A stretch of DNA of 64,000 nucleotides from Cupriavidus taiwanensis (GTDB taxonomy: Bacteria > Pseudomonadota > Gammaproteobacteria > Burkholderiales > Burkholderiaceae), in assembly GCF_900249755.1 (NCBI RefSeq), contig NZ_LT976853.1, positions 3,326,034 through 3,390,033 of the forward strand, written 5' to 3'. Below are positions 6,590 through 24,078 of this stretch, piece by piece. Each line of letters starts with the position of its first letter. The first letter of the stretch is position 1. A model generated the notes under the pieces. That model searched no databases and was not told where the DNA came from. It was given only the letters and a program-made list of their open reading frames with translations. The position numbers and the translations under genes are program-made.

Positions 6590-8829
6590 TCATAGTCCTC
6601 TGGTTTAAATTGCAGCACACCGGTCTCGTCTGGGAAAGTGGGGTGGTCGAACAGCAGAACCTGAGCATATCCATATGCATGGTACCGGTCCACAAGGCCA
6701 TTCAGCGAAGGAGTCTCCCGTTCCAGGTGCCCTGGCAGGTTTACGATGCAGGCCACGCGCCAGAAGGGAACGTTTTCATAGAATGCGAACAGCGCTCCCT
6801 TCTTGAGCTGGCTGCTGAGGTGAATAGTGAAGGTTCGGCGTGTACTTCCTGCGTTCACGTCGGCTTCCTTGTAGGCGCGGTTCTTGAGCCAATAGTAGCC
6901 GGCGCTGTCTGCTGCATCGTATGTCATATCGGTAACATCCCCGCGCCATTGGCGTATGGCGGAAGGCAGCGATTCTTCAACGCTATGCAATGGCACGTTA
7001 CTGCGCAGTTCATCCGCTCTTGCATGAGCCCGCGCAAGCCGCGCGCTTACCGCGGAATCGATGCTGCGCCCTCTGAACTTCCAATAGTTGATGTAGTTGC
7101 CCGGGTGGGTTAATTGAAGAAACCCACGCCCGTACCAAGGGGCATACCATTTGCCACCCGACTCATCCTCAGACGTGGCACGCAGCCAGCCGGTCTCTTG
7201 CACCGAATTCCCCAAGAATGCTGCTAGCCGCGCGCGGCTCGTTATGCCGTACTTGCGCCAAGAGGCATTCAAGGTGTTCTTATTTGGCATGACCAGCCGG
7301 CCGGCAGATGGACGAGCGTTCTCATAGACGATCCTCTTCGGAACGCCGGTCCCCACACCCCGCAAGGCTCTTGCGGGTACGGCTTGCTTTAACTCGTTGG
7401 CACTAAGCCACAGCGCCCGACGCATATGATGAATGAACTGCAGCGGATGGAAATGCCATACCGCACGGGGCAATCCTGTGTGCTGCCAGAATCCCAGTTT
7501 CTGCGCCTGCTCCTTGAACCGCTGCCAGCTATCTTCCGCAACCAGCGGCAGGCCCGGCTTGCACAGGCGCGCAAAGCGTGCATCCAGGTCAGCGACATCC
7601 CATTCAGTCGGATGCTTGACCACCAGATGACGCAGCGCCGCCTTGCACGCATCGCCGTTGTCGCCCAGCATCTGTAGCGTCGCTGGATCGTCGACGATGG
7701 CATCGCCCGGACTCAGCATCGTGCCTTCTTCCACCTTCTTCCAGCCCAGCCAGTGCGGGAAGTCCGCGTCAGACAACTGCACGATGCCGGCCTGCGACAG
7801 GTCGATATAGCCTGCTGATCCGGGGGCATAGGGCACCAATTGCCAATTATCGGTGTGGCGGCTGCGCTCTTCGCTGAGCACGCGCCCGAAGGTCAGCCAC
7901 TCCAGGCCGGCGCTTGGGTTGTCCGGATACAGCGCCTCCGCCAGAGCCAGCATGGCATACGCATAACCTGGCTGCACTAGCCGGCCGATTTCGCGGTACT
8001 GGCCCTGCGCTGTGCGTATGCGTGTGGTGGTGATGCGCTTGTCCTTGTCCAGTCGGACGCTGACATAGAGGCACTGCCCGGTATTGCTCCCCGCTGTGCC
8101 GGCCGGAAGCATCGGGTTGCCCTCCTTTTCCGCCGTCCGCCATACCCCGTTGCCCGCCGGCAAGCGCGGATGCGCCGCCACAAATGACTTGTCTTCCGGG
8201 ATAACGAAGTGCATGTCGCCATAGACATCGGCGCTGCCCTTGTCCGTGATGCGGCTGCTGTCGTGGAAAAAGCCGGCGAGTGCTTCGTCGGTACAGAAGA
8301 TCTCGAAATGGAAGCCGCTGCGACCGGTCTGGTGCTGGCTTCCCGGATAGCCGAGTATGTCGCGCCGGTAGACCTTGGCTTTCCTGGGATCGTCCGGCAT
8401 GCGCGCGTCGTGGCTGGTACGGGTTCGGTAACACGCCGGCAGCGTGTCGGTACGACCGTGCAAATGCTCAGCGGCGGCCAGGTTCATGTACAGCGAATAG
8501 AACACCACTGGCGTGGCGGCGCCGGTTTCGGTCTCATGGCGCAGCAGCACGAAACTGGTGTCGTAGGGCTGGCCTTCGTAGGCTTCGGTCCTGGGCGCCA
8601 GCCGGTAGGCCACGATGGTGCCATCTGCGATGGCCCGAACCGGCGTGGCCTGATTGGCGCCGATATGCAGACCGCCGTGCCAACAGTACGTGGCGCCGAT
8701 CCTGCGTGCCGGATACGCGCCCTTCGGGTCGTCCGATTCGGCCAGCAGCCGCGCCAGCCAGGCGTCCTCCGACTCTTCCATGGCGTTGCCCGTCGGCGGC
8801 ATTGTAATGATGGGATAGCTGATGATCAT
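6577..8829 (-). CDS. Probable T6SS cell-wall effector: M23-like module plus GH19/lysozyme-like domain
   Basis: This is a 750-residue protein encoded 13 bases behind vgrG. At about residues 45-115 it resembles the LytM/M23 fold (WHGGLHIGANQATPV, then AIADGTIVAYR and VVFYSLYMNL). However, the usual HxxxD metal motif reads HGGLH, and the second ligand region reads YSLY instead of HxH, so this module is probably inactive or altered. The middle region (~120-510) has no family I can name. The last ~237 residues look like a chitinase/lysozyme-type GH19 fold: FLGNSVQETGW carries the likely catalytic Glu near residue 545, followed by GRGFLQLTHPGNY. The expected action is cleavage of peptidoglycan glycan strands in target cells. 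Translation from 9057 is open but overlaps vgrG; ATG 8829 is chosen because it follows the vgrG stop. Downstream genes are the presumed immunity array. Confidence 0.78.
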   Translation of the reverse strand: MIISYPIITMPPTGNAMEESEDAWLARLLAESDDPKGAYPARRIGATYCWHGGLHIGANQATPVRAIADGTIVAYRLAPRTEAYEGQPYDTSFVLLRHETETGAATPVVFYSLYMNLAAAEHLHGRTDTLPACYRTRTSHDARMPDDPRKAKVYRRDILGYPGSQHQTGRSGFHFEIFCTDEALAGFFHDSSRITDKGSADVYGDMHFVIPEDKSFVAAHPRLPAGNGVWRTAEKEGNPMLPAGTAGSNTGQCLYVSVRLDKDKRITTTRIRTAQGQYREIGRLVQPGYAYAMLALAEALYPDNPSAGLEWLTFGRVLSEERSRHTDNWQLVPYAPGSAGYIDLSQAGIVQLSDADFPHWLGWKKVEEGTMLSPGDAIVDDPATLQMLGDNGDACKAALRHLVVKHPTEWDVADLDARFARLCKPGLPLVAEDSWQRFKEQAQKLGFWQHTGLPRAVWHFHPLQFIHHMRRALWLSANELKQAVPARALRGVGTGVPKRIVYENARPSAGRLVMPNKNTLNASWRKYGITSRARLAAFLGNSVQETGWLRATSEDESGGKWYAPWYGRGFLQLTHPGNYINYWKFRGRSIDSAVSARLARAHARADELRSNVPLHSVEESLPSAIRQWRGDVTDMTYDAADSAGYYWLKNRAYKEADVNAGSTRRTFTIHLSSQLKKGALFAFYENVPFWRVACIVNLPGHLERETPSLNGLVDRYHAYGYAQVLLFDHPTFPDETGVLQFKPEDYEWKK

Positions 8830-8842
8830 GAGGCAATGCGGC

Positions 8843-11728
8843 TCAGGAGTATGGGAAGGAACCGGGTATCTCCCATGGAGTGGCCGGCGCCATGGGTAGC
8901 GGATAGTCGTGGCGGACGCCTGGCTCAAACTTCCTCTGCGCTGCCTTATAGGTAATCGGCCCCGGACATTCAAAGGTGATATTGCCGCCCTCAATCGTGC
9001 TGGCAGCCCCACCGGCGGTCGCAATACGAATGCGCTTGGCGGCCGCAAAATCCACATTCATATTGGCCGAGACAATGGTCAGATCCTCCCGCGCCGCCAG
9101 CTTCAACAAATCATGCTGCGCCTGCAGATCGATATCGTCCTGGCCCGCCGTCAGTTGCAGGCCGACATTTCCTTCGCCAGCCGCAGACAGTCCCGCCGCC
9201 ACGCCAATCGCGTGACCCGCATGCACGCGCGCCTGCCCCGCGACGGCGATACTGTGGTCCTGCCCGCTGGCCATTACGACGCTTTCGCCGCTGGCAATCT
9301 GCAAGTCCTGTCCCGCGACAACTGCCACACCAGCCCTGCCGTTGAGGTGGACCATCGGCTCGCCCTGATGCGGCACCTTGCCTGGCGTGCTGGTATTGCC
9401 GCTGGCCGCGTCCTCCCTGGCCGCTTCGAGCGATTGCCCATCGACCATGCCGGCTGCGGCCTTGGCCTGCTTCGCCAGCGGCGCCTCGTCATCCTTCCCC
9501 GTCGAGAGGGCTTGGCTCTGGTGCGTGGTAGCGCCATCGCTCAGCGTCCTGACCAGATCGCCCGCCTGTCGCAACAGCGCGATGCCGGCAGCGTTGTCGC
9601 CTGTCGGCAGCACCCGCTTGGTGACGGCATCGCGATAGGTCGTCAGCAATAACCCCGCTTGCCCGCGCACCGCGGCATAACCGTCGGTGCGCAGCTCGAA
9701 CCCCTGCCCGCGGAAGCTGCCGCGGCGGTTGTCCTGCTGGTGAATCACATGGCCGAGGTTGAGTTGGGTGGCCTGTTCCGTCGTGGCGAGTTGCGTGCGC
9801 AGCTGGTCATCGGTGTCGTCGAACACCAGCTGGCTGTAGCCCTTGCCGCCGTGTTCCTGGCTTTTGAAGCCAGTCAGCGCGGCGTCGTTGCGGTGGCCGT
9901 CCGGGTCGGCACTCATGCCGTGCCACGCCGGGCTGTTGCCGCCGGCAAGGTTGCCCTGCGCGCTGGGCCGGCTGTCGGAACCCATCGCATAGAGACCGCT
10001 GGCGTCGTAAGGCTGGAAGAACGTGGTGGCGGCCATCGATTTGCCGCCCGGCGTGGGCGCGATGCCGGCTTCGCCGTGCCCGTTGTAAAGCGCGCCGATC
10101 ACGAAAGGCTGGTCGATATCGTTGTCCGCAAACTTGACCACCACCTCCTGGCCGATGCGCGGCAGCCATTGCCAGCCCATGCCGGCGCCGGCTTGCCGTT
10201 GTGCGACGCGCACCCAGCGGCTGCTGCGGTCGTCGGCGCGTTCTCCGCGCTGCCAGGGGAAGCGCACACGGATCTGGCCGCTTGGGCTGGCGTGGTGTTC
10301 GGCATTGCCGTCCGGCTGCGTCTGCCCGTCGGGGCCGACCACGATCGCGGTATGAACGCCCAGCGGGGTGGAATGGCTGTAGAGGCGCGGACAATCGCCC
10401 TCCAGCACGGCGGCGCGCCGGGGGCGGCGTGCATCGAAGGCCCGGAAAGGCGCCGCATAGCCGTGTTCCCGTGCGGCCTTCCGCAGGGATTCGGTCGGTA
10501 CCAGCCGCTCGGCTGTGTCGTCGAAGACGCTGCGCATCAGACCGGTGGTAGTCGCCGCAACATCCGGCGCCGGTGGTGGCATCTCGAAACACAATGCCGC
10601 TTCCAGCGGCCCGATCCGGTCGGCGAGCGCGGCACGCGTTTCCACGGGGAGGTTGTTGATGCCGCAGTGTTCGACCGCATCGAGCAGCAGCGGGTAGCCG
10701 GCCGTATCGTCTTGTTGCGGCGGCAGGTGCGGGCAATCCGTGACGGTCAGGCGCGTGCCGCTGCGCAAGGTACGTACGGAGGCGCTGCCGGTGAACACCA
10801 GCGCGCGGGCTTCGATGGCTTCTATTACCTGCTCGGCGATGCGCTGCGCGCTGACCGTGTCCGGCGCCAGCGACAGGCTGACGGACAGGTAAGGATCCGG
10901 ACTGGCGGCATGGCTGGCAAATCCGCCGTAGCGCGCCGGCGCGTGACCGCGGATGGTGCGCTTCGTCTCAGGGTCCCAGGCGCCCACCGCGACACCGCCG
11001 ACCGCCGCACGCGTTTCACAGATCAACTGCTGGATCGCGTCGGCCGATTCCTGGCTATGTGCGCGGTGATAACGGATGCCGCCGCCAGCCGCTGATTCGG
11101 GATCATCGGGCAGTTGTGTGCTGTCGGCGAAGATCACCACGGCATGCCCGAAGGGCGCTTCGTCGTCTTCCACCACGGTATATCCGAGCCCGGCCTCGGC
11201 CAGCAGGCGGGACAGGAAGTGGTGGTCGGTCTCGCGGAACTGCGCGATGTGGTCGCGTTCACCGAACACGTCGATGCGGGCTTCGGCGCCGGCGGCATAG
11301 CGCCATCGCGCATACGGCGCGTAGTCCTGTAGAACGGTTTCGATGATGCTGTCGAGCTTGCGGTGCTGGAACACCTGGCTGTGGCGCTGCTGCGTGGTCA
11401 GCCACAGCCATGGCACCACGGTCAGGCGGTAGCGCGCGAGGCTGCCGTCGGCACCGAGCTTCTCCGCCTGCCGGATAAGCCCCGTGCGGCGCAACTGGCC
11501 ACCGCCGGCAAGCGTGGTCAGCAGCGTGACGCGTTGGCCAAGCAGGCTGTCGAGCGCGATATCGACCTTGGCACTGACCGCGACGATGCGCCATTCGGAC
11601 AGCGCAGAGATGGCATCGCGGCCGATCCAGGCTTCGACGCCCAGTTCACCCAGCGCGCCTTCACCTTCCAGCGCATACAGGCGATGGGTAGAGGAAAAGG
11701 GCTGTTGGTGGAAGCGTGCAAGATCCAT
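8843..11728 (-). CDS. vgrG: Type VI secretion system spike protein VgrG with DUF2345 extension
   Basis: This 961-residue protein forms the tip of the T6SS puncturing device and carries effectors. The N-terminal ~380 residues match the gp27-like base (RDHIAQFRETDHHFLSRLLAEAG is characteristic when read in pieces). The gp5-like OB fold follows (IRVRFPWQRGERADD, then IGQEVVVKFADNDIDQP and VIGALYNGHGEAG). The C-terminus has a DUF2345-type repeat-rich beta region (GQDLQIASGESVVMASGQDH). It ends with a short tail of about 50 residues (PGPITYKAAQRKFEPGV) that may contact the cargo. The ATG at 11728 (MDLARFHQQPF) is used although no strong ribosome binding site is seen. No other T6SS structural gene lies in the window, so this is an orphan vgrG-effector module served by a T6SS encoded elsewhere. 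Confidence 0.93.
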   Translation of the reverse strand: MDLARFHQQPFSSTHRLYALEGEGALGELGVEAWIGRDAISALSEWRIVAVSAKVDIALDSLLGQRVTLLTTLAGGGQLRRTGLIRQAEKLGADGSLARYRLTVVPWLWLTTQQRHSQVFQHRKLDSIIETVLQDYAPYARWRYAAGAEARIDVFGERDHIAQFRETDHHFLSRLLAEAGLGYTVVEDDEAPFGHAVVIFADSTQLPDDPESAAGGGIRYHRAHSQESADAIQQLICETRAAVGGVAVGAWDPETKRTIRGHAPARYGGFASHAASPDPYLSVSLSLAPDTVSAQRIAEQVIEAIEARALVFTGSASVRTLRSGTRLTVTDCPHLPPQQDDTAGYPLLLDAVEHCGINNLPVETRAALADRIGPLEAALCFEMPPPAPDVAATTTGLMRSVFDDTAERLVPTESLRKAAREHGYAAPFRAFDARRPRRAAVLEGDCPRLYSHSTPLGVHTAIVVGPDGQTQPDGNAEHHASPSGQIRVRFPWQRGERADDRSSRWVRVAQRQAGAGMGWQWLPRIGQEVVVKFADNDIDQPFVIGALYNGHGEAGIAPTPGGKSMAATTFFQPYDASGLYAMGSDSRPSAQGNLAGGNSPAWHGMSADPDGHRNDAALTGFKSQEHGGKGYSQLVFDDTDDQLRTQLATTEQATQLNLGHVIHQQDNRRGSFRGQGFELRTDGYAAVRGQAGLLLTTYRDAVTKRVLPTGDNAAGIALLRQAGDLVRTLSDGATTHQSQALSTGKDDEAPLAKQAKAAAGMVDGQSLEAAREDAASGNTSTPGKVPHQGEPMVHLNGRAGVAVVAGQDLQIASGESVVMASGQDHSIAVAGQARVHAGHAIGVAAGLSAAGEGNVGLQLTAGQDDIDLQAQHDLLKLAAREDLTIVSANMNVDFAAAKRIRIATAGGAASTIEGGNITFECPGPITYKAAQRKFEPGVRHDYPLPMAPATPWEIPGSFPYS

Positions 11729-12665: not shown

Positions 12666-12974
12666 GTGAGGCACCCATCGACACGTCAGTTGGAAAAGCA
12701 CATTCACGCATGTGCAATGGAAACGTCGAACATCGTCTTCGTCCCTCATGCGCGAGAGCGAATGTGGCTACGGATGATCAACGACCCGATGGTTCTCGAA
12801 GCGCTTCGTAAAGGCGTCATCTCGCGTGAACCGGAGCTCGACATGCGGGCACCCGGTCTTCGCTGCGTGATGGAACGCTATGTTTCGGGAATCAACGTTG
12901 GCGTCGTTGTTCTGGTCGATTATCCCGCGTCCGACTTGACGGTCATTACGGTGATGGATGTGACCAAAAGGTAA
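12666..12974 (+). CDS. DUF4258-type protein, probable toxin of a type II toxin-antitoxin pair
   Basis: This 102-residue protein has the hallmarks of DUF4258: FVPHARERMWLRMINDP at the start of the domain, then EALRKGVI, and a C-terminal strand region ending LTVITVMDVTK. DUF4258 proteins are usually paired with HTH or zinc-finger antitoxins and share the compact RNase-like fold of MqsR/RelE-type toxins. The GTG at 12666 is preferred because AGGTGG lies 5-6 bases upstream; an ATG at 12717 would also keep the domain. The stop is 4 bases before the HTH gene, so the two are co-transcribed. Catalytic activity is not shown by the sequence. Confidence 0.72.
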   Translation: MRHPSTRQLEKHIHACAMETSNIVFVPHARERMWLRMINDPMVLEALRKGVISREPELDMRAPGLRCVMERYVSGINVGVVVLVDYPASDLTVITVMDVTKR

Positions 12975-12978
12975 GAAG

Positions 12979-13449
12979 ATGTACCACTACACAGACGGCG
13001 GCCTCAAGAACGTGTGGCTGGTCAATGGATACAAAGTCCAGAAAACGCCCTATGGCGAAGGCGTGTCTATCGAGGACCTGGATGGTCTTTGCGTCGCCAT
13101 TTGCCTGGCTCTGGCAAAGAAGCCCTCCCCTCTCACCGGTACGGAATTTCGCTACATCCGCAGCGCCGGGTTGATGCAATCGCAAGCCGGCCTGGCGAAA
13201 TTACTTGGCAACAATGAGCAGGCCATTGCGCGTTGGGAAAAAACCGGCAAGTTGCCAGGCTGGGCTGACAAACTGGTGCGCCTGCTTTACCTGGCGCGCG
13301 CAGAAGGCAATGCACCGATTGCCTCTGTGATTGAGCGCATCAACACAATCGAACGCGCGGAGAAGCAGAAGATCGTGCTACGCGCCGCAAAGTCGGGATG
13401 GGCATCCAAGGTGGAGTCGCAAGGCAGCGACGGAAACGTTGCGGCATAA
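12979..13449 (+). CDS. HTH (XRE-type) regulator, probable antitoxin partner of the DUF4258 protein
   Basis: This 156-residue protein has an N-terminal portion of about 50 residues (MYHYTDGGLKNVWLVNGYK, then the segment GVSIEDLDGLCVAIC). A helix-turn-helix domain follows (FRYIRSAGLMQSQAGLAKLL and NNEQAIARWEKTGKLPG). The layout resembles MqsA-type antitoxins, with a partner-binding N-terminus and a DNA-binding XRE domain, but the CxxC zinc motifs of MqsA are not present. It follows the DUF4258 gene by 4 bases. It likely neutralises that protein and represses the operon through the palindrome at 12641-12659. An alternative is a stand-alone regulator. Confidence 0.72.
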   Translation: MYHYTDGGLKNVWLVNGYKVQKTPYGEGVSIEDLDGLCVAICLALAKKPSPLTGTEFRYIRSAGLMQSQAGLAKLLGNNEQAIARWEKTGKLPGWADKLVRLLYLARAEGNAPIASVIERINTIERAEKQKIVLRAAKSGWASKVESQGSDGNVAA

Positions 13450-13993: not shown

Positions 13994-15868
13994 TCACAAA
14001 AACCCAATCGAAAACCAGGGCACCAACGTCAACAACACCAAGGCCACAAACAGCGCCGCCATATGCGGCCACACCCGGGGCATCGCTACGTCCGGCGAGA
14101 CCCGCCCGATCGCGCAGGCGGCATAAAACCCCACGCCAAATGGCGGTGCGAACAGCCCTAGTCCCATCGCAAATATCACCACCATGGCATAGTGCACTTC
14201 ATGCACGCCAACCAGCTTCGCAATGGGAAACAATAACGGCCCGAACAACACAATGGCGGGTATGCCTTCCAGCAAGCTGCCGAGGATGACGAAAGCCAGC
14301 GCCGATACCAGCAGGAAACCGGTCTTGCCGCCAGGGACTGCGGACAGAATCCCCACCAGGTCTTGCGCGAAGCCGGATTGCGTCAGCGCCCACGCCATCG
14401 CGGTCGCACAGCCGACAATCAGCAAGATCGCACCAGACAGCGCCGCGGTATCCACCAGCATCGGATAGATCCGACGCAAATCGAACCGGCGATACACCAG
14501 CACCCCCGCCACCACGGCATAGAAGATGCCGATGGTGGACACCTCGGTCGCGGTAGCCACACCCTCCACCACAGCCGTGCGGATGATGACGGGCAGGGCC
14601 AGCGCCGGCAGCGCGACCAGCAGCGCTTTCACGATCGCCTGGCGCGACGGCCTTGGTACGCGGCTCATGTCTTCCTTGCGGGTCTGGAACCACACCACCA
14701 GCGCCATCATCACCAGCCCCACCGCCGCGGGCATCAGCCCGCCGATGAACAGCGACGTGATCGATACCCCCGTCACCGATCCCACCGTGATCAGCACGAT
14801 GCTGGGCGGGATGGTCTCCGACATCGCGCCCGAGGCCGACAGCAGCCCGATCAGGTCGCCGTCCCTGGCGCCGCGCCGCTTCATTTCCGGGAACAGGCTT
14901 GGCGCCACCGCGGCCATGTCGGCGGCCTTGGCGCCCGAAATGCCGGAGACGATATACATCGCGCCCAGCAGCACATACTGCAGGCCGCCGCGCAGATGGC
15001 CGATCAGGCTGACCAGGAAATGGATCATCGCCCGCGCCAGTCCGGTCATCTCGATCAGCGCGCCCAGGAAGACGAACAGCGGCACCGCCAGCAGGATCAG
15101 GTGCGACATGCCCTCCTGCATGCGGTTCGGGATGATGGACAGCGGCGTGGCCGTGGACAGCGACAGATAGCACAGCGTCGCCAGCCCGAAGGCGAAGGCG
15201 ATCGGTACGCCGATGGCCACGCATGCGACCAGCATCAGCAGGAAAAAGATCACCAGGTTGGCATTGCCCAGCGTTATCAGCGTGGGCGACAGCAGCCACA
15301 ACAGTCCGCCGCACAACGCCACCGTCAGGCCTGTCGCAACCACCGGCTTCCAGCGCGCCGCAAGCAGGCGCAAGCTTGCCGCCACCAGCATCAGCACGAT
15401 GCCGGCGAGCACCGCGGCGGCGCGATAGCCTTCGCTGATTTCCAGCGTAGGTGTCGACACCTCGATATGCTCGGTCAGGTGTTCCCAGGCGGGCCGCAGC
15501 AACAGCGCCAGGAACGCCACCACCAGCCACATGCCCAGCGCATCCACCCACGCGCGCCTGGCCGGTGGCAGGTTCTTGATGAAGGTGGTCAGCTGCATAT
15601 GCGCGCCGCGGTCCAGCGCGATGATGGCGCCGAGCATCGCCAGCCACAGGAACAGGATGCTGGCCAGTTCGTCCGTCCAGGGAACCGGCTGGTGCAGGGC
15701 GTAGCGCGCGAACGCACCGCCGCCCAGCAGCAGGATCTCTGCCAGCACGATCAATGCGGCCGGCACCTCGACCATGCAGGCCATCAGGCGGCGCCAGCAC
15801 GCTGCGGCGGCCGGCGGCGCTGACGGCTTCAGCGGCGCTGGTGCGATGGCATCAGCGGTGTGCTCCAT
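13994..15868 (-). CDS. TRAP transporter fused permease (DctQ-DctM type)
   Basis: This 624-residue inner-membrane protein fuses the small 4-TM DctQ subunit to the large DctM subunit. DctQ covers about residues 25-170 and includes PVPWTDELASILFLWLAMLG. DctM covers about 190-620 and includes NANLVIFFLLMLVACVAIGV, SGISGAKAADMAAVAPSLFP and GASGAMSETIPPSIVL-like segments. Such transporters import organic acids or sugar acids using a sodium gradient. The ATG at 15868 (MEHTADAIAP) is chosen because AAGGAG precedes it; upstream extension would run into the binding-protein gene. It is the last gene of a minus-strand operon behind the dehydrogenase (16962-18407) and the binding protein (15907-16926), which points to a sugar acid such as a hexonate or hexuronate as substrate. 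Confidence 0.9.
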   Translation of the reverse strand: MEHTADAIAPAPLKPSAPPAAAACWRRLMACMVEVPAALIVLAEILLLGGGAFARYALHQPVPWTDELASILFLWLAMLGAIIALDRGAHMQLTTFIKNLPPARRAWVDALGMWLVVAFLALLLRPAWEHLTEHIEVSTPTLEISEGYRAAAVLAGIVLMLVAASLRLLAARWKPVVATGLTVALCGGLLWLLSPTLITLGNANLVIFFLLMLVACVAIGVPIAFAFGLATLCYLSLSTATPLSIIPNRMQEGMSHLILLAVPLFVFLGALIEMTGLARAMIHFLVSLIGHLRGGLQYVLLGAMYIVSGISGAKAADMAAVAPSLFPEMKRRGARDGDLIGLLSASGAMSETIPPSIVLITVGSVTGVSITSLFIGGLMPAAVGLVMMALVVWFQTRKEDMSRVPRPSRQAIVKALLVALPALALPVIIRTAVVEGVATATEVSTIGIFYAVVAGVLVYRRFDLRRIYPMLVDTAALSGAILLIVGCATAMAWALTQSGFAQDLVGILSAVPGGKTGFLLVSALAFVILGSLLEGIPAIVLFGPLLFPIAKLVGVHEVHYAMVVIFAMGLGLFAPPFGVGFYAACAIGRVSPDVAMPRVWPHMAALFVALVLLTLVPWFSIGFL

Positions 15869-15906
15869 CGATGTCTCCTTTTCTGTTTTATCGTTGGTGC
15901 CAGCGG

Positions 15907-16926
15907 TCATGCGAGACGGCCGGCGTATTTCTCCAGCCGGGACCACGCCTCGTCGCCGTACTTCTTCTTCCATTCGGCATAGAAGCCGGCCCCTTGCAGC
16001 AAGGCGCGGAATGGCGCCGGGTCGGGTTGGCTGAAGACGATGCCAAGACGGGTCAGCTCGGCCTGGGCATCGGTATTCAAACGCGCGATGTCTTCGCGTT
16101 GCTTCAGCGCCGCCGCGGTGAAATGGGCGGTGATGGCGGCGCGCACCTCAGCCGGCAGCGCCTGGAACTTTTTGGCGTTGCCGAAGATGAAGTGGCCATC
16201 CCAGGTATGTCCGGTCAGCGCGCAGAACTTCTGCACTTCATAGAGCTTCGCGCTGCGGATCAGCGCCAGCGGGTTTTCCTGCCCGTCGACGACGCGCGTC
16301 TGCAGCGCCGAATAGAGTTCGCCGAACGGGATGGCGGTGGGCGACGCGCCCAGCGCCTTGAACATCGAGATCCACAGCGGGATGCCGGGCACGCGCACCT
16401 TGAAGCCCTTCAGGTCGGCCGGCGTGTTGATCGGCCGGCTGGCCGAGGTGATGTTGCGATAGCCGTTGTCCAGGCATTTGTCGAACACATGCAGGTTGAC
16501 CTTGCTCAGCGCGGCCCGGACATAGGCGCCCACGTCGCCATCCATCGCGGCCCAGACCGTGGTGTAGTCCTTGAAGGCGAAGGCCACGCCGTTGATGCCG
16601 GCGGTGGGCACCAGCGTTTGCAGGTTGGTGCCGGCCGTGGACATGAAATCCATCGCGCCGGTGCGCACCTGCGCGATCATGTCCGGTTCGCTGCCGAGCT
16701 GGCTGTTGGGATAGACCTGCAGGTCGACCTTGCCGCCGGTGTCCTGGCGGATCGCCACCGCGGCCTGCTGGATGCGCAGCGTGCCCGGATGGTCGGCGGG
16801 AAAGGCGGTGCCGTACTTCAGGCGGATGGTGGCGGCCTGGGCGAATACGTGTGCCGCCGGCAGCGTCATCGCCAGCGTGCCGGCGGCTAGCGCGCCAAAG
16901 CGGCGCCGGGTGAACAAAACGGTCAT
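15907..16926 (-). CDS. TRAP transporter periplasmic substrate-binding protein (DctP family)
   Basis: This 339-residue exported binding protein delivers its ligand to the fused permease encoded 38 bases downstream. The N-terminus (MTVLFTRRRFGALAAGTLA) is a signal peptide with a twin-arginine-like RRRF motif, ending near HVFAQA. The mature protein starts TIRLKYGTAFPADHPGT, as is typical of DctP. It contains the segment PINTPADLKGFKVRVPGIPL, which carries the conserved Arg that pairs with the ligand carboxylate. GQENPLALI, in the place of the usual GQENP block, is also present. The ligand is not determined by sequence; the surrounding catabolic genes suggest L-gulonate, D-mannonate or a hexuronate. 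Confidence 0.9.
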   Translation of the reverse strand: MTVLFTRRRFGALAAGTLAMTLPAAHVFAQAATIRLKYGTAFPADHPGTLRIQQAAVAIRQDTGGKVDLQVYPNSQLGSEPDMIAQVRTGAMDFMSTAGTNLQTLVPTAGINGVAFAFKDYTTVWAAMDGDVGAYVRAALSKVNLHVFDKCLDNGYRNITSASRPINTPADLKGFKVRVPGIPLWISMFKALGASPTAIPFGELYSALQTRVVDGQENPLALIRSAKLYEVQKFCALTGHTWDGHFIFGNAKKFQALPAEVRAAITAHFTAAALKQREDIARLNTDAQAELTRLGIVFSQPDPAPFRALLQGAGFYAEWKKKYGDEAWSRLEKYAGRLA

Positions 16927-16961
16927 GGTGTGTCGGTCTCCTTGTTATAAGGTGGGGTGGC

Positions 16962-18407
16962 TCAGGACGACAGCAGCGCAGCAGCGCCGCCAAGGCGCAG
17001 CACCCCCAGGTGGCTGGCCAGCCGGTCTGCCAGTGAGGCCGGCCAGGGCTCGCTGCCAAAGACCGGCGTGTGCGCGAGTGCCTGGCGCACGGCATCGGCA
17101 TCGCTGTGCGCGCCACGCAGGCACGCCGCCAGCGCGGGCGCGCCGGGGTCGTCGAAGGCAAGCGGCTGGCCGCCATCGCTGCGCCCGCCGCGCAGGCAAT
17201 GCAGCCAGACCGCAAGCGCGCGCTCCAGCCAGGGCCGCTCGGTGCCGGCACTGGCGCGCAGCGCGGGCAGCCAGCGCACCGGCACTTTCTGCGTGCCGTC
17301 GGCTGCAATCTGCACGGTGCGGTGGCCGAGCGCCGCATTGCGCAAGCGCTGCAGCAAGGCCTGACTGTAGGCGCCTGCGTCATACCCGGGCGGCGCTTGC
17401 ACGGTGGCGCGCAGGTCTGCCATCACGCCGCAGGCGAAAGCGCCGACCAGCGGATCCTCCATGGCCTCGGCAACGGTCTGCAGCCCGCACAGTTGCCCGG
17501 CATAGGCGATGGCCGAATGCGTGCCGTTGAGCAACTGCAGCTTCATCGCCTGGAACGGCCGGACATCGCCGGTCAGCAGCGCGCCGCCCGCTTCCCATGC
17601 CGGCCGCGGTCCGGCGAAGCGGTCTTCGATCACCCACTGCGTGAAGGCTTCGCAGATGATCGCGGCCTCGTCGCGCAGGCCCAGGCGGCGCTGCGCGTCA
17701 CGGCGCGATGCCGGCGTGGCGGCGGGGACGATGCGGTCCACCATGGTGTTGGGGAAGGCCACGTCGTCGCGCACGCGCCGGGCCAGCGCCGGGTCCTTCA
17801 GCATGGCGTACTGCGCCAGCAGCTTGCGCAATGTATCGCCGTTGGCGGACATGTTGTCGCAGCAGACGATGCTGAGCGGCGCGCCGGCGGGCCTGCGGCG
17901 CAAACCCGCGGCCAGTACGCCGAGCGTGCTTCTGGGCGTGTCTGGATGGGCCAGGTCGTGCCGGATATCGGCGTGGTTCGGGTCCAGGTCGGCGCTGGAC
18001 GGATGCTGGCAGTAGCCCTTTTCTGTGACCGTGCAGGTCACCACGGCGACAGCGGGATCGGCCAGCGCGCCGAGCACCTCGCCCAGCGCATGCGGGGCAT
18101 ACCAGGCCTGCATCACGGCGCCGACGATGCGCGTGGTAGCGGCCGCGCCTTCGCACTCGGTTACCGAATACAGGAAGTCCTGCGCCGCCAGCGTGCGCGG
18201 TGTGCGCGGCTCGCGCAGGCTGACGCCGGCAATGCCCCAGCGCTTATCCCCGGCGCGGATCGCGGCCTCGGTGTACAGCGCCTGGTGCGCGCGGTGGAAT
18301 GCGCCAAGGCCCAGATGCAGCACGCCGCGCGACAAGCGGCTGCGATCGTAGCCGGGCTGTTGCACTTCAGCGTTGGCGCGGCAACTGTTGCGTTGCGTGA
18401 GCCTCAT
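16962..18407 (-). CDS. Mannitol dehydrogenase-family oxidoreductase, probable D-mannonate/fructuronate oxidoreductase
   Basis: This 481-residue NAD-dependent polyol-type dehydrogenase shows the N-terminal nucleotide-binding segment (RGVLHLGLGAFHRAHQALY) and the catalytic Lys-Asn-His block of the family (MKLQLLNGTHSAIAYAG, about residue 285). UxuB-type members interconvert D-fructuronate and D-mannonate; others act on mannitol or arabinitol. The neighbouring ManD-type dehydratase, which consumes D-mannonate, makes the UxuB role the best guess. The frame stays open far upstream to 19244, but that part is antisense to the dehydratase gene. ATG 18407 (MRLTQRNSC) follows GAGG and is taken as the start. 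The TRAP genes follow 35 bases downstream. Confidence 0.82.
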   Translation of the reverse strand: MRLTQRNSCRANAEVQQPGYDRSRLSRGVLHLGLGAFHRAHQALYTEAAIRAGDKRWGIAGVSLREPRTPRTLAAQDFLYSVTECEGAAATTRIVGAVMQAWYAPHALGEVLGALADPAVAVVTCTVTEKGYCQHPSSADLDPNHADIRHDLAHPDTPRSTLGVLAAGLRRRPAGAPLSIVCCDNMSANGDTLRKLLAQYAMLKDPALARRVRDDVAFPNTMVDRIVPAATPASRRDAQRRLGLRDEAAIICEAFTQWVIEDRFAGPRPAWEAGGALLTGDVRPFQAMKLQLLNGTHSAIAYAGQLCGLQTVAEAMEDPLVGAFACGVMADLRATVQAPPGYDAGAYSQALLQRLRNAALGHRTVQIAADGTQKVPVRWLPALRASAGTERPWLERALAVWLHCLRGGRSDGGQPLAFDDPGAPALAACLRGAHSDADAVRQALAHTPVFGSEPWPASLADRLASHLGVLRLGGAAALLSS

Positions 18408-18677
18408 CGGCGGTACCTCGGCGGGACTGTTGGCGGCAGCATCGTGCGTGCATCCGGGCAGTGTTTTCGATGCGAAGAAGTTTGCACGTAGCCGTGGTGT
18501 CGAATGTGCGGTGCTTTCGCGATTCAAACGCGGCAATCGCTGCATTTGATTGCGGAATCGGCCGTACTCCGCCGCATTCCGTCGGCAGTACTCTGGCGCC
18601 ATCCACACCGATGCAGGCGTTGCGCCACCAGGCAGCGCCTTCGGGCCAACCCAACGACGATCCGGCCGGAGACACCC
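18408..18677. promoter_or_regulatory. Divergent promoter region between sugar-acid operons
   Basis: This 270-base region separates the minus-strand dehydrogenase/TRAP operon from the plus-strand dehydratase operon and must hold promoters for both. No regulator gene is adjacent. I could not fix -35/-10 boxes or an operator with confidence. Confidence 0.4.
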
Positions 18678-19886
18678 TTGAAGATCGAACAGATAAAAAC
18701 CATCGTCACCTGCCCGGGGCGCAACTTCGTGACGGTCAAGGTGGTCACCGATGCCGGCGTGTACGGCCTGGGCGACGCCACACTCAATGGCCGCGAACTG
18801 GCGGTGCGCGCCTACCTGGACGAGCATGTGATCCCGTGCCTGATCGGGCGCGACCCGCGCCGGATCGAGGACATCTGGCAATACCTCTACCGCGGCGCCT
18901 ACTGGCGGCGCGGGCCCGTCACGATGACCGCCATCGCGGCCATCGACATGGCGCTGTGGGATATCCTGGGCAAGCTGGCCGGCATGCCGGTGTACCAGTT
19001 GCTTGGCGGGCGCAGCCGCGATGGCCTGATGGTGTACGGCCACGCCACCGGCCGCGACCACGCCGAAGCCATCGACGCGGTGCACAGCCATCTCGAGCAA
19101 GGCTACAAGGCGATCCGAGTGCAGTCGGGCGTGCCGGGCTTGTCCAAGGTTTACGGCGTGGGCACGCAGCCGGGCCGCTATGAACCGGCGCAGAAGGGCC
19201 TGCCGCCGGAGGAGCCCTGGGACACGTCGCTCTATCTGCGCCACACGCCCGAGCTATTCCGCAAGGTGCGCGAAGCCGTGGGTTTCGCCCCGCATCTGCT
19301 GCACGATGCGCATCACCGGTTGACCCCGATCGAAGCGGCTGGCCTGGGCAAGGCGCTGGAGCCGTTCAGCCTGTTCTGGCTGGAAGATGCCACGCCGGCC
19401 GAAAACCAGGAAGCGTTCCGGCTGATTCGCCAGCACACCACCACCCCGCTTGCGGCCGGCGAGATTTTCAATTCGCTGTGGGACTGCAAGGACCTGATCA
19501 GCCAGCAGCTGATCGACTACATCCGCACCACCATCGTTCACGCCGGCGGCATCACGCATGTGCGCCGCATCGCGGACTTCGCCGCAACCTACCAGGTGCG
19601 CACCGGCTTCCACGGCGCCACTGACCTGTCTCCGGTATGCATGGCGGCGGCGGTCAACTTCGGGCTGTGGGCACCTAACTTCGGCATCCAGGAACTGATG
19701 CCGCATGGCGACCTGATCGACGAGGTGTTCCCGCACAACTACCGGCTGGAGGACGGTTACCTGGTGATGGACAACGTGCCGGGACTGGGCGTCGACATCG
19801 ATGAGCCGCTGGCGGCCCGCTATCCATACGAGCGCGCCTACCTGCCGGTGGCGCGGCTGCGCGACGGCGCGATGTGGAACTGGTAG
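18678..19886 (+). CDS. Enolase-superfamily dehydratase of the D-mannonate dehydratase (ManD/RspA) group
   Basis: This 402-residue member of the mandelate racemase/enolase superfamily has an N-terminal capping domain ([19 protein letters not shown]), then the (beta/alpha)7 barrel. Metal ligands are seen as HDAHHRLTP (Asp), [12 protein letters not shown] (Glu) and AAGEIFNS (Glu), followed by [17 protein letters not shown]. This pattern is the ManD group, which dehydrates D-mannonate (or D-gluconate) to 2-keto-3-deoxygluconate; some members have low activity. The start is a TTG at 18678 preceded by CCGGAGACACCC. No ATG lies nearby that would keep the start of the fold ([14 protein letters not shown]). 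It is followed by a zinc dehydrogenase and a sugar kinase in one operon. Confidence 0.87.
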
Positions 19887-19920
19887 CCGCCGCGCCAGTT
19901 GACCGGAACAAGGAGCCAGC

Positions 19921-20955
19921 ATGTTCAGCATAGTCGTCGAGCAACCGCACTGCATGGCCGTGCGCGAGCGCCCAATTCCCGTCCCTGCCGAAGGCGAGGT
20001 GCGCGTGCGCGTCCGTCTCGCCGGTATCTGCGGGTCGGACCTGCATATCTTCCATGGCAAAAACCCGTTTGCGACCTATCCGCGCGTGATCGGCCATGAG
20101 TTCGTCGGCCATGTCGATGCGGTCGGCGCCGGCGTCAGCGCGTTGCGCATTGGCGAGCGGGTGGTGGTCGATCCGGTGGTCAGCTGCGGCCAATGCCACG
20201 CCTGCCGGATCGGCCGGCACAATGTCTGCCAACGGCTGCAGGTGATTGGCGTGCACCGCGATGGCGGCTTCAGCCAATACGCATGCGTGCCGGCGGGTAA
20301 TGCCTATGTGGTACCCGATGGCATGCCGAACGCCAGTGCCGCTGTGATCGAGCCGTTCGCCGTGGCGGCCAACGTCACGCACCGCACCGGCGTGCTGCCC
20401 ACCGACGTGGCGCTGATCTACGGGGCCGGGCCGGTCGGCCTGAACCTGCTGCAGGTGCTCAAGCGCGTGTATGGGGTACGCACCTTCATCACCGACCATG
20501 TCGATGAACGGCTGGCATTGGCGCGTGGCTGCGGCGCCGGGGAAGACGAAATCATCAACACCGCGCGCGAGCCGCTTGCCCGCGCTTTGGAACGGCGCGG
20601 CGTGGCGTGGGGGCCGACGCTGATCTACGATGCGGTGTGCCATCCTGCCATCCTGGAGGAAGCCGTGGCCATCGCGGCACCGGCAGGCCGCATCGGCGTG
20701 CTTGGGTTTTCCGCCACGCCGTCGGCGCTGCCGCAGCAGGCGCTGACCGGCAAGGAACTGACGCTGTACGCGTCGCGCCTGAACTGCGCGATGTTCCCTA
20801 CCGTGATCGACTGGATCACGCGCGGGCTGGTCGATCCGGGCCGGATCGTCACGCATCAGGTCGACTTCCGCGACGTGGCAGACGCGTTCGATCTTGCAGA
20901 AAGCCAGCCGCGCGCAAGCTGCAAGGTGCTGCTCGACCTGGGCGAGGACGCCTGA
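19921..20955 (+). CDS. Zinc-dependent alcohol dehydrogenase, RspB-like; probable L-gulonate/L-idonate 5-dehydrogenase
   Basis: This 344-residue MDR-family dehydrogenase has a catalytic zinc site (GICGSDLHIFHGKNP and GHEFVGHV). Its structural zinc site is CGQCHACRIGRHNVC, and the cofactor domain contains YGAGPVGLNLLQ. Genes of this kind next to ManD-type dehydratases act on L-gulonate or L-idonate and yield D-fructuronate or 5-ketogluconate. That knowledge and the operon context are the basis for the substrate guess. It starts with ATG at 19921 after AAGGAG and ends 1 base before the kinase start. Confidence 0.82.
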   Translation: MFSIVVEQPHCMAVRERPIPVPAEGEVRVRVRLAGICGSDLHIFHGKNPFATYPRVIGHEFVGHVDAVGAGVSALRIGERVVVDPVVSCGQCHACRIGRHNVCQRLQVIGVHRDGGFSQYACVPAGNAYVVPDGMPNASAAVIEPFAVAANVTHRTGVLPTDVALIYGAGPVGLNLLQVLKRVYGVRTFITDHVDERLALARGCGAGEDEIINTAREPLARALERRGVAWGPTLIYDAVCHPAILEEAVAIAAPAGRIGVLGFSATPSALPQQALTGKELTLYASRLNCAMFPTVIDWITRGLVDPGRIVTHQVDFRDVADAFDLAESQPRASCKVLLDLGEDA

Positions 20956-20956
20956 C

Positions 20957-21889
20957 ATGCGCGCGAGATTCGACATCGTCGCCCTCGGCGAGGCCATGGT
21001 GGAATTCAACCACGCCGGCGCGCGGGGTTCGCGCACTTACGTGCAGGGCTTTGGCGGCGATACCGCCAACGCCATCATCGCCGCGGCGCGCCAGGGGGCG
21101 CGGTGCGCCTACGTGACCCGGCTGGGCGACGACGAGTTCGGGCGCATGTGCCTCTACCTGCTGCGCGCCGAGCACGTCGATACCAGCGCCGTCGTCATCG
21201 ATGCGTCGGCGCCTACCGGGCTCTACTTCGTTCATCACGGCCCCGGCGGACACACTTTCAGCTATCGGCGCACGGGCTCCGCCGCCAGCCGGATGCAGCC
21301 GTCGGCGCTGCCGGTGGCATTGCTGGAACGGGCCACGTGGCTGCACGTCTCGGGCATCAGCCAGGCCATCAGCCCGTCCGCCACGCGTACCGTGCGCGAG
21401 GCGATCCGCATCTCCCGCCAGGCCGGCAACAAGGTGGCCTACGATCCGAACCTGCGCCTCTCGCTGTGGCCGCTGGAGCGCGCCCGCGACGTGATCCTGA
21501 CGACCATTCCGCTGTGCGACCTGTTTCTGCCCAGCCTTGACGACGTGCGCCTGCTCGCCGGCATCGAGGAACCCCTGAGCATCGTCGACTGGTGCCATCG
21601 GATGGGCGCGCGGCACGTGGTGCTGAAGCTGGGCAGCCAGGGATGCCTGGTGTCTGAGGGCGGACCGGTGACCGCCGTGGCGCCATACCCGGTTGACGCC
21701 GTCGATGCCACCGGCGCGGGAGACTGCTTCGACGGCAGCTATCTGGCGCGGCTGGTGGCCGGAGACGACGCCGTGTCGGCCGCGCGCTGGGCCTGCACGG
21801 CAGCGGCGCTGGCCACCACGGGCTACGGCGCGGCGGCGCCGCTGCCGCGTGCACAAGCGGTGCGGGAGGCCTTGCAAGCGCAATCATGA
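20957..21889 (+). CDS. kdgK: PfkB-family sugar kinase, probable 2-keto-3-deoxygluconate kinase
   Basis: This 310-residue cytoplasmic kinase of the ribokinase/PfkB family has an N-terminal segment (DIVALGEAMVEFN) and a glycine-rich substrate segment (YVQGFGGDTANAIIAAAR). The C-terminal PfkB signature DATGAGDCFDGSYLARL carries the catalytic Asp. In this operon the expected substrate is 2-keto-3-deoxygluconate, the product of the ManD enzyme, which would be phosphorylated at C6 for Entner-Doudoroff cleavage. The ATG at 20957 immediately follows the dehydrogenase stop. The aldolase for the product is not in the window. Confidence 0.85.
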   Translation: MRARFDIVALGEAMVEFNHAGARGSRTYVQGFGGDTANAIIAAARQGARCAYVTRLGDDEFGRMCLYLLRAEHVDTSAVVIDASAPTGLYFVHHGPGGHTFSYRRTGSAASRMQPSALPVALLERATWLHVSGISQAISPSATRTVREAIRISRQAGNKVAYDPNLRLSLWPLERARDVILTTIPLCDLFLPSLDDVRLLAGIEEPLSIVDWCHRMGARHVVLKLGSQGCLVSEGGPVTAVAPYPVDAVDATGAGDCFDGSYLARLVAGDDAVSAARWACTAAALATTGYGAAAPLPRAQAVREALQAQS

Positions 21890-22030
21890 GGGTGCCGAAG
21901 CGGTGACATTCGCGCTGCCCGCGCGCCCGCTCGCGAACGAAATCCGTCGATTCGGCCCATGGGCCTGGAACGATGCCTGGTGGTGGCCTATACCTGTCGC
22001 ATGCCAACCTTCCTGACGACGAGGTATCCC

Positions 22031-22351
22031 ATGCACCACGCCTTCCCGCCCAACGACCCCAACGCCATGGCCTACTGGCGCGCGCGCCGCATGGTGCGCG
22101 CGCTGCGCGGCTGGTATATCCACCTGCTGGTCTACGCCGTGGTCAATGCGTGGCTGTGGTTCCGCTTCTTTTACTTCCCGTCGCCGTCATGGTCGCATTA
22201 CGCCACCACGGGCTGGCCCTGGCCGCTGACCACCACGCTGGCCTGGGGCCTGGGGCTAGCGCTGCACGGGTTGCTGGTGTGGACGCGGCTGTCGCGCCGG
22301 GGCCGTGACTGGGAGCAGCGCAAGATCCAGGAATTCATGGATCGGCACTAG
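22031..22351 (+). CDS. 2TM-domain small membrane protein
   Basis: This 106-residue protein consists almost wholly of a 2TM domain: RARRMVRALRGWYIHLLVYA forms the first part and first membrane helix, LTTTLAWGLGLALHGLLVW forms the second, and DWEQRKIQEFM ends it. The same module forms the N-terminus of the sensor kinase at 23164-24078 (EARHRVRALRFFYLHAMVYV and RRWEERKIAEYM), so the two are paralogous in this part. It is convergent with the response regulator gene. A role in the same signalling system, for example as an interacting membrane partner, is possible but inferred. GAGGTATCCC precedes the ATG at 22031. Confidence 0.78.
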   Translation: MHHAFPPNDPNAMAYWRARRMVRALRGWYIHLLVYAVVNAWLWFRFFYFPSPSWSHYATTGWPWPLTTTLAWGLGLALHGLLVWTRLSRRGRDWEQRKIQEFMDRH

Positions 22352-22388
22352 CCAGATCACTGGACCGGCGCTGCACGCGCCGGCCGGC

Positions 22389-23150
22389 TTACATCTGCCG
22401 GAACCGATGCATATAGGCGCGCGACACCGGCAGTTCGGCATCGCTGCCGCGCATCCTGACAAAAAGCCGGCCCGAGTCGTCGCGCCGCGTGCCGGCCACG
22501 TATTCCATATTGACGATGGATGAGCGGTGGATCTGCCAGAACACCTCCGGGTCCAGCCCCGCCATCAGTTCCGCCAGCGGCGTGCGGATCAGGTGCTCGC
22601 CATCGCGGGTATGCACCACGACGTATTTGTCGTCGCTCTGGAAATACATCACCTCCTGGATCGGCACATGGCTGGTGGTATTGCCGCGGCTGGCCCGCAC
22701 CCACCGCAACTGGCCGCCGCCTTCCGCGCGCGGCTGGGCGCGTGTCAGCTGGTTCAGCAACTGCGCCAGCTCGGGCAGCGGCGCGGCTTCCTGCAACGCC
22801 TTGCGCAACCGCTCGATGGTGCGGCCGAGGCGTTCCTCGCCGACCGGCTTGACCAGGTAGTCCACCGCCGCGCGCTCGAACGCATCGAGCGCGAATTCGT
22901 CATAGGCCGTGACGAACACCAGCCGCGTATCGGTCTCGATGCCCTGCGCCACTTCCAGTCCGGACAGCCCGGGCATCTTGATATCGAGGAAGGCAACGCT
23001 CGGCGACAAGCGCGCAATGGCGTCGGCGGCTTCGATGCCGTTGGTCGCCTCGGCCACGATCTGCAGCTCCGGCCACAGGCGCTGCAGCTTGCCACGCAGG
23101 TACGCGCGCAGGTGCTCTTCGTCATCGGCAATCAGCGCAGTGGGCGTCAT
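22389..23150 (-). CDS. LytTR-family response regulator (LytR/AlgR type)
   Basis: This 253-residue regulator has a receiver domain (ALIADDEEHLRAYLRGKLQ with the acidic pair, FLDIKMPGLSG with the phospho-acceptor Asp, and YLVKPV with the conserved Lys). A C-terminal LytTR DNA-binding domain follows at about 150-250 (VMYFQSDDKYVVVHTRDGE and FWQIHRSSIVNMEYVAG). It pairs with the histidine kinase directly upstream, whose stop at 23164 lies 13 bases before this start. The ATG at 23150 has GGAGAC upstream and is preferred over a TTG at 23162. Targets are unknown, and no dedicated output gene is evident besides the 2TM protein. Confidence 0.9.
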   Translation of the reverse strand: MTPTALIADDEEHLRAYLRGKLQRLWPELQIVAEATNGIEAADAIARLSPSVAFLDIKMPGLSGLEVAQGIETDTRLVFVTAYDEFALDAFERAAVDYLVKPVGEERLGRTIERLRKALQEAAPLPELAQLLNQLTRAQPRAEGGGQLRWVRASRGNTTSHVPIQEVMYFQSDDKYVVVHTRDGEHLIRTPLAELMAGLDPEVFWQIHRSSIVNMEYVAGTRRDDSGRLFVRMRGSDAELPVSRAYMHRFRQM

Positions 23151-23163
23151 CGGCGTCTCCAAT

Positions 23164-24078
23164 TCAGGATGCAGGCGGCAGCGGCAGGTCGATCAGCACG
23201 GCGGTACCGGGCGAGCGCTCTTCTATCCTGACGTGGGCGTCGCCGTCATACAGCACCGCCAGCCGTTCGCGCAGGTTCGACAACCCGACACCCGCACCGG
23301 CCGACGGCCGGAAGCCCATGCCATCGTCCTCGATCGTCGCCAGCATGCGCGCGCCGCGCCGCTCCAGCCGGACCAGCAGCCGCCCGCCTTCGATCTTGGG
23401 CTCCAGGCCATGCTTGATCGCATTCTCGACCACGGGCTGCAGCAGCATCGGCGCCAGCGGCATCGACTCCAGTTCAGGGTCGACCTCGACCGAATAATGC
23501 AGCCGCTCGCCCATGCGGATACGGATCAGCGCCAGGTAGTCGCGCAGCAGCTTCGCCTCCTGCGCCACCGTGCCTTGCGTCGCACGGCTGGCGGCCAGCG
23601 ACGCACGCAGATAGGCGATGAAATGCTCCAGCATCATCGTGGCCTTCTGCGGCGCGGGCTCGATCAGGCTGACCACGTTGGCCAACGTGTTGAACAGGAA
23701 GTGCGGCTCGATCTGCGCCTGCAGCAGCTTCATGCGCGCCTCGACCAGCTGCTTTTCCGTCGACAGCGTGCGCACCTGTTCCTGCGCCATGTATTCGGCA
23801 ATCTTGCGCTCCTCCCACCGCCGCCCGAGCAGGCCCACACGTCCCCAGGTCATGATGCCGTGCACCGCCAGGCCGATGCCCCAGCCCATCAGCGGGCCGC
23901 CCGCCCAGGGGCGATGCGACGATCCCATCAGATGGAAGCCGATCAGCATCGCGTTCACCACCACGTAGACCATGGCGTGCAGATAGAAGAAGCGCAGCGC
24001 CCGCACGCGGTGGCGGGCTTCTTCGTAGGCGCGTTGCTCGGGGGCGGGGCGCCAGAGGCGGGAGTGGGGGAAAGGCAC
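23164..24078 (-). CDS. Membrane sensor histidine kinase of the LytS/AlgZ type with N-terminal 2TM domain
   Basis: This 304-residue kinase starts with a 2TM sensor module (about residues 15-95: RHRVRALRFFYLHAMVYV and GWGIGLAVHGIMTWG). It then has a coiled linker and the His_kinase domain with the phospho-acceptor His in LLQAQIEPHFLFNTLANV. The ATPase domain follows, with the N-box VVENAIKHGLEP and the G-box DGMGFRPSAGAGVGLSNLRER. It starts with a GTG at 24078 without a visible ribosome binding site. The small 2TM protein at 22031-22351 duplicates its sensor module. The partner is the LytTR regulator just downstream. The signal is not known. Confidence 0.9.
   Translation of the reverse strand: MPFPHSRLWRPAPEQRAYEEARHRVRALRFFYLHAMVYVVVNAMLIGFHLMGSSHRPWAGGPLMGWGIGLAVHGIMTWGRVGLLGRRWEERKIAEYMAQEQVRTLSTEKQLVEARMKLLQAQIEPHFLFNTLANVVSLIEPAPQKATMMLEHFIAYLRASLAASRATQGTVAQEAKLLRDYLALIRIRMGERLHYSVEVDPELESMPLAPMLLQPVVENAIKHGLEPKIEGGRLLVRLERRGARMLATIEDDGMGFRPSAGAGVGLSNLRERLAVLYDGDAHVRIEERSPGTAVLIDLPLPPAS

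Follow-up and report, generated by a model that had tools for sequence, protein, structure and literature searches.

The subject of this study is a sugar-acid locus within a window of 64,000 nucleotides from Cupriavidus taiwanensis (contig NZ_LT976853.1, positions 3,326,034 to 3,390,033), in which two divergent operons, uxuB-dctP-dctQM on the minus strand (13994–18407) and manD-rspB-kdgK on the plus strand (18678–21889), are likely to form a catabolic module for L-gulonate, probably also serving D-mannonate. All six genes are long intact reading frames with family matches in a comparison with Pfam and NCBIfam profiles. The gene set named in the original prediction (a tripartite ATP-independent periplasmic (TRAP) transporter, a UxuB-like and an RspB-like dehydrogenase, a ManD-type dehydratase and a 2-keto-3-deoxygluconate (KDG) kinase) was thus recovered in full, and in the divergent layout that it had described. 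The genes, their families and their association are read directly from the DNA, while the substrates and reactions given below for all the module proteins are predictions. In related bacteria the same genes are accompanied by a GntR/FCD regulator and by paired palindromic boxes, both of which are missing here.

The Proposed Pathway and Its Enzymes

In the proposed mechanism, the acid would be captured in the periplasm by the solute-binding protein DctP and imported through the fused membrane protein DctQM. The RspB-like zinc dehydrogenase would then oxidize C5 of L-gulonate with nicotinamide adenine dinucleotide (NAD) to give D-fructuronate, which the UxuB-like enzyme would reduce with NADH to D-mannonate, so that the two steps together would amount to a C5 epimerization with zero net redox change. 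D-mannonate would be dehydrated to KDG by ManD, KDG would be phosphorylated by KdgK to 2-keto-3-deoxy-6-phosphogluconate (KDPG), and a KDPG aldolase encoded elsewhere would split the latter into pyruvate and glyceraldehyde-3-phosphate. This is the route that the original prediction had outlined, and the precedent of Haemophilus influenzae (see below), the conservation of the enzyme core, the absence of the uronate isomerase UxaC and the complete active site of ManD all argue for it.

The mannonate dehydratase gene manD (18678..19886), the first of the plus-strand operon, encodes an enolase-superfamily protein that scores above the NCBIfam equivalog cut-off for ManD (715 vs. 550 bits). It aligns without gaps over 401 residues with the ManD of structures 2qjj and 2qjm (NaManD) from Novosphingobium aromaticivorans. 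Eight catalytic and metal residues (R147, Y159, D210, H212, E236, E262, H312 and E339 in NaManD numbering) are kept in the window protein and in 17 of the 17 complete relatives aligned, two further rows (L013 and L018) being cut by contig ends, and they are also kept in two Escherichia coli proteins of the family, RspA and a second ManD. Position 314 is Ala in the window ManD, in the 17 complete relatives, in 2qjj and in 3thu, and Pro in RspA, in the second E. coli ManD, in L018 and in 4k1w, the last being otherwise like 2qjj; Ala at this position goes with efficient, and Pro with poor, mannonate dehydration, so that the window protein has the residue pattern of a high-efficiency ManD. NaManD and the window protein differ at position 311 (Phe instead of Cys) and in part of the loop at about 163–167. 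The ManD of Chromohalobacter is said to be an enzyme of low efficiency; that of the window has Ala314.

The zinc dehydrogenase gene (rspB-like or gulD-like, 19921..20955, plus strand), whose product is the predicted L-gulonate 5-dehydrogenase, belongs to the RspB family (NF007489, 578 bits vs. a cut-off of 376); the protein is 55% identical to E. coli RspB, and its best solved match is RspB (4ilk). The uxuB-like gene (16962..18407, minus strand), the first of its operon, encodes a predicted D-mannonate/D-fructuronate oxidoreductase with Mannitol_dh and Mannitol_dh_C domains, whose best solved match is E. coli YdfI (4im7, 316 bits). The kdgK-like gene (20957..21889, plus strand) codes for a PfkB-family kinase (Pfam), a predicted KDG kinase with the KDG kinase 1wye as best solved match. 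Start sites were chosen by ribosome-binding sequences and by comparison with relatives: manD starts at a TTG with GGAG upstream, a GTG standing at the same place in one relative, L004 (also listed as L113), and the start of uxuB was set at 18407, a listed open reading frame of 16962–19244 overrunning manD on the opposite strand. The gap between manD and rspB is 34 bases, and kdgK begins one base past the rspB stop.

Genome-Wide Context and Points Against the Assignment

The lack of uxaC noted in the original prediction extends well beyond the locus, since no match to UxaC was found in the whole genome (5.95 Mb in 7 contigs, completeness 100) or in any of the 60 genomes of the genus, the same search being positive in 7 of 14 control genomes. 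This result bears on the improbable alternative that the module serves D-glucuronate without UxaC, by way of a reduction to L-gulonate by another enzyme or of an unrelated isomerase, with the TRAP system carrying the hexuronate. High-efficiency ManD serves glucuronate catabolism in Caulobacter, which counts for such a role, as does the reported existence of a TRAP receptor for hexuronic acids (PMC7660916). The missing UxaC speaks against it, in a search that covered this isomerase and left out other uronate isomerases and reductases.

The genome further encodes a single KDPG aldolase, outside the cluster and beside a second KDG kinase, and a single UxuA-type mannonate dehydratase; neither these two enzymes nor the regulator and paired boxes of the relatives had figured in the original prediction. 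The uxuA gene lies elsewhere in the genome (C2, L088:8579–10619) with its own GntR/FCD gene.

Several observations weigh against the L-gulonate assignment. The UxuA-type enzyme, encoded beside a GntR regulator and a major facilitator superfamily (MFS) carrier with no adjoining uxuB, could make ManD redundant; redundancy is a feature of low-efficiency ManDs. The UxuB-like protein does not pass the cut-off of the fructuronate reductase model NF011611 (327 vs. 603 bits), so that the description of a protein that probably works like UxuB, given its best solved match to E. coli YdfI, stands, yet membership in that family does not hold. The best NCBIfam model of the kinase is the KDG/2-keto-3-deoxygalactonate kinase NF040938, yet the score is under the cut-off (192.5 vs. 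400 bits), and no kinase gene was observed next to the locus in several Cupriavidus, nor in any of the five Variovorax loci or the ten loci from two other genera, so that this gene does not belong to the conserved core. The nearest solved relative of DctP is 4oan (369 bits) and not the L-gulonate receptor 4pbq (104 bits). Finally, a literature search by titles and the beginnings of abstracts, with most subscription papers outside its reach, found no paper describing this locus in Cupriavidus or the biochemistry of these proteins.

As to the first of these points, the idea that ManD is a mere relic in the presence of UxuA is weakened by their distribution, because UxuA (counted at an identity of at least 88%) accompanies the window-type ManD, being present in 13 of the 19 genomes of the genus with that ManD and in 3 of the 41 others. 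In G056, which is among the 13, uxuA is interrupted by an in-frame stop, and two of the six genomes with the window-type ManD and no UxuA match are incomplete (G043, 86%; G046, 78%).

Conservation of the Module in Relatives

A search with DctP found 111 relatives, of which the best 80 loci were analyzed. In 19 of these, DctP is at least 67% identical over the segments found (the closest named relative is Cupriavidus alkaliphilus, with 96%), and 18 of the 19 also hold ManD and UxuB. The exception, in Cupriavidus lacunae (L012), has the TRAP genes alone (L012:10001–13000), next to a LytTR module and with no ManD, UxuB or RspB within 21 kb, perhaps after a deletion of the enzyme genes. Across 18 relatives ManD is 81–96% identical and is usually the best-conserved protein of the locus, DctP equaling or slightly exceeding it in the closest ones. 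Both uxuB and rspB are kept in every ManD-bearing relative whose contig reaches far enough. UxuB occurs in none of the loci in which DctP is 61% identical or less, and outside the close DctP clade ManD is found only as an edge piece of the Pro314 type in L018 (DctP 65%) and as distant matches of 25–27% in L026 and L033. Seven distant-DctP loci of this kind were inspected in detail by eye, and six have no sign of the pathway. Two distant loci of Burkholderia/Pandoraea (L025 and L049) have apparent genes, also judged by eye, for a CoA-transferase, an iron alcohol dehydrogenase and two amidohydrolases, a gene content that suggests another acid as substrate.

The uxuB-manD-rspB core recurs in Variovorax, in Sphaerotilus and in two other genera of the family. 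Among 299 genomes of the wider family, 37 are listed with a ManD of at least 84% identity, 24 of them in these two other genera, and all 10 of the 24 that were fetched have the same arrangement of uxuB, manD and rspB, with no TRAP genes of the window type in the 16 kb around the core. In the three loci whose carrier was typed (L139, L141 and L142) it is instead an MFS protein nearest to a D-galactonate-transporter model, under that model's cut-off, which fits a sugar-acid substrate.

These distributions bear on a further reading, which we consider very improbable, namely that the ligand of DctP is another acid and that the neighborhood shares the pathway only in part, the TRAP genes having been recruited later beside a ManD-RspB-UxuB core. 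The ten loci with the core and no such TRAP genes, the C. lacunae locus with TRAP genes and no enzymes, and the lack of UxuB and near-lack of ManD beside the more distant DctPs all count in its favor. Against it, wherever a close DctP is combined with ManD and UxuB (18 loci), the TRAP genes come after uxuB in the same orientation for as much of the locus as each contig covers, and this DctP clade differs from 61 other relatives at 27 positions, some of them at ligand contacts of SiaP, as would be expected of a receptor whose ligand has changed (see the following section).

Within the genus, the window-type ManD (at least 87% identity) is present in 19 of 60 genomes and a different ManD (68–70%) in 14 others; none of the 60 is listed with both, although genome G005 has two partial pieces of 73%. 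Four of the 14 were fetched (L108:6523–15941, L109, L110 and L111) and contain a different sugar-acid cluster, with the 68–70% ManD, a UxuB of 40–42% identity, a distant TRAP system, a zinc dehydrogenase and a GntR match. Two of them, L108 and L110, were also typed as having a dehydratase of the altronate/galactarate kind.

The Transporter and Its Ligand

The TRAP gene set is complete, consisting of dctP (15907..16926, minus strand; Pfam DctP, 243.5 bits) and dctQM (13994..15868, minus strand), the third gene of the operon, in which the small and the large permease are fused (Pfam DctM 347 bits, DctQ 86 bits; TIGR00786 above its cut-off) and which starts at the ATG at 15868 with AAGGAG upstream. 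Since DctP is far closer to 4oan than to 4pbq, the L-gulonate ligand of the latter is not transferable to it. Transfer of the ligand from 4oan is rejected as well, because 27 positions separate the clade of the window DctP from the other relatives, and 4oan is like the latter wherever the two can be compared; a literature search on 4oan found no publication. The 27 positions, which set the 19 close DctPs (the window included) apart from 61 others, are defined as those held in at least 18 of the 19 and differing in at least 75% of the 61, the fragmented L037 being dropped. Positions 80, 98 and 182 align with residues 49, 67 and 151 of SiaP, which are ligand contacts, and position 41 would correspond to SiaP residue 10 if the same offset extended past the aligned stretch. 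This suggests a receptor whose pocket changed together with its pathway; the ligand is not named thereby.

An alternative, which we regard as unlikely, is that the transporter brings in D-mannonate, to be converted straight to KDG by ManD, the two dehydrogenases merely widening the range to L-gulonate or to D-fructuronate made in the cell. Both L-gulonate and D-mannonate were hits in the receptor screen of H. influenzae (PMC5788505), and the position of ManD as usually the best-conserved protein of the locus would fit this alternative. However, uxuB is first in the transporter operon and rspB stands next after manD, and both are kept in the relatives with ManD, which suggests that both dehydrogenases are central.

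Regulator and Paired Boxes

The divergent intergenic promoter region of the window (18408..18677) has neither the gntR gene nor the paired CTACCATGGTAG-type boxes of the relatives. A GntR/FCD gene lies between or beside the divergent genes in loci such as those of Variovorax and Sphaerotilus, and palindromic boxes, typically CTACCATGGTAG, are found in the promoter region before uxuB, an arrangement in which the regulator probably reads the boxes. The boxes were searched for by their core CCATGG, which is thus invariant by construction; around it, the 43 box sites have A (36) or G (7) before the core and T (37 of 43) followed by A (41 of 43) after it. The spacing between neighboring cores is 96 or 97 bp in 14 of the 18 loci; a third core lies at 8 bp from one of the pair in L003, L014 and L016, and the six cores of L019 are irregularly spaced. 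On the given strand, CCATGGTA was found nowhere else in the available DNA of the 18 loci.

A GntR-family regulator is absent beside the window genes and is present in 18 of the 35 loci with uxuB and manD. When a pair of boxes is taken to mean two or more cores no farther than 400 bp from uxuB, regulator and pair occur together in all 18 and are both missing in all 17 others. The Fisher value overstates the strength of this co-occurrence, because the loci share ancestry and a number of the strains are nearly identical. The 17 comprise 16 loci of the window's genus, the window included, and L142 of another genus; a lone CCATGG occurs in three of them (L004, L103 and L104). Left out of the 35 were L012 and L018, which lacked a match to uxuB or manD at the chosen cut, and L107, L113 and L114, which duplicate the records L002, L004 and L005, while the fragmented L037 and the loci with the other ManD (L108–L111) were not entered. 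Regulator and boxes thus seem to have been lost together, perhaps in two independent events, and with both missing in this lineage the operons would now be constitutive or under some other control. The 64-kb window has no site within two mismatches of CTACCATGGTAG, where 0.7 would be expected by chance, so that this absence is meaningful only against the relatives. No substitute motif was found.

These observations can be brought together in a tentative and rather doubtful model, according to which the GntR/FCD regulator of the relatives would bind a pair of CTACCATGGTAG-type boxes separated by about nine helical turns and so form a repression loop over the promoter region. Cupriavidus and, independently, one other lineage would have deleted the regulator and both boxes, turning an inducible system into a constitutive or differently wired one.

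Other candidates for control of the locus were considered. A regulator encoded elsewhere in the genome was rejected as an orthologue, since the best-scoring match of the relatives' GntR is only 26% identical (57 bits) and none of the 18 matches exceeds 35%. At E 1e-20, a match to it is present in 28 of the 60 genomes of the genus, with a highest identity of 32% among the candidates scored (at most 45 per genome), and the window's own genome has none at that level; control by an unrelated regulator is possible. The original prediction had stated that no regulator adjoins the genes, and this is correct for a sugar-acid regulator: a LytTR response regulator with its histidine kinase and an MqsA-like helix-turn-helix (HTH) protein are encoded nearby, and neither is linked to the locus in all relatives. 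The LytTR pair was rejected as a dedicated regulator, being near the locus in many, not all, Cupriavidus and absent from the loci of Variovorax, Sphaerotilus and the like. An operator common to this locus and the uxuA locus had been suggested by ACCATGGTA, which has five exact sites in the genome (two for the reversed control pattern), one of them before uxuA, and had looked like the mark of a common regulon. This candidate was rejected too, because the conserved element of uxuA is a different motif, TGGTNNACCA, present in two or three exact boxes upstream of uxuA in 16 of 16 genus genomes (alignment of 16 regions); in the divergent region of the window the best match to TGGTNNACCA has two mismatches and the best match to TACCATGGTA four.

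Relation to Known Systems

That pathways of the same logic exist in other proteobacteria, as the original prediction had it, is borne out by the literature. In H. influenzae, the L-gulonate pathway (gulPQM-gulD-uxuB-uxuA-kdgK-kdgA) was demonstrated by kinetics, a receptor-ligand structure, knockouts, expression and isotope labelling (PMC5788505). The two systems share a TRAP transporter, a mannonate dehydratase and a KDPG aldolase, and with the zinc dehydrogenase, the UxuB-like enzyme and the kinase of the window as putative counterparts of the L-gulonate dehydrogenase, UxuB and the KDG kinase they would follow the same chemical route; however, the dehydratase of H. influenzae is UxuA and its aldolase gene is among the neighbors, whereas the window has ManD, an aldolase encoded elsewhere and a fused permease, and the two receptors are only distantly related (104 bits via 4pbq). 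An L-gulonate locus with a TRAP transporter and a GntR regulator was reported for Chromohalobacter salexigens and predicted for two Halomonas (PMC5507952); by its description it would resemble the present one in its L-gulonate enzymes and transporter, and it differs from it in the GntR-family regulator, none adjoining the window genes. In E. coli, the adjacent rspA and rspB belong to the ManD and RspB families (64 and 55% identical to the window's, one strain each), but no transporter, uxuB or kinase is annotated adjoining them, and RspA has Pro314.

The pathway as such is therefore already known. Neither its variant with ManD in these soil bacteria nor a combined loss of regulator and boxes was met in the literature consulted; no search was aimed at regulator or boxes, so that their novelty is not established. 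The locus would extend the sugar-acid pathway of H. influenzae and the halophiles to soil Burkholderiales, with a distinct receptor clade, and, since both regulator and boxes can be named, would allow a catabolic module without its dedicated control to be compared with relatives that kept theirs; a specialist would expect the pathway, and what is new is the loss of regulation.

Neighboring Genes

Downstream of kdgK, the region 21959–24078 encodes a protein with two transmembrane segments (2TM), the LytTR response regulator and a 2TM histidine kinase (the last two at 22389–24078), as assigned with Pfam; beyond its frequent place beside the locus in Cupriavidus, this module also stands beside the TRAP genes alone in C. 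lacunae. On the other side of the locus, a DUF4258 protein and then the MqsA-like HTH protein (12979–13449, a weak match) are encoded at 12666–13449, in the layout of a toxin-antitoxin pair, and the HTH gene is 88–97% conserved beside the locus in L002, L101 and L102. Farther along, the region 3894–11728, with a VgrG-like gene (8843–11728) followed on the same strand by a large gene (6577–9057) and several small look-alike genes (3894–6589), has, judged by eye, the look of a type VI secretion effector accompanied by repeated immunity genes.

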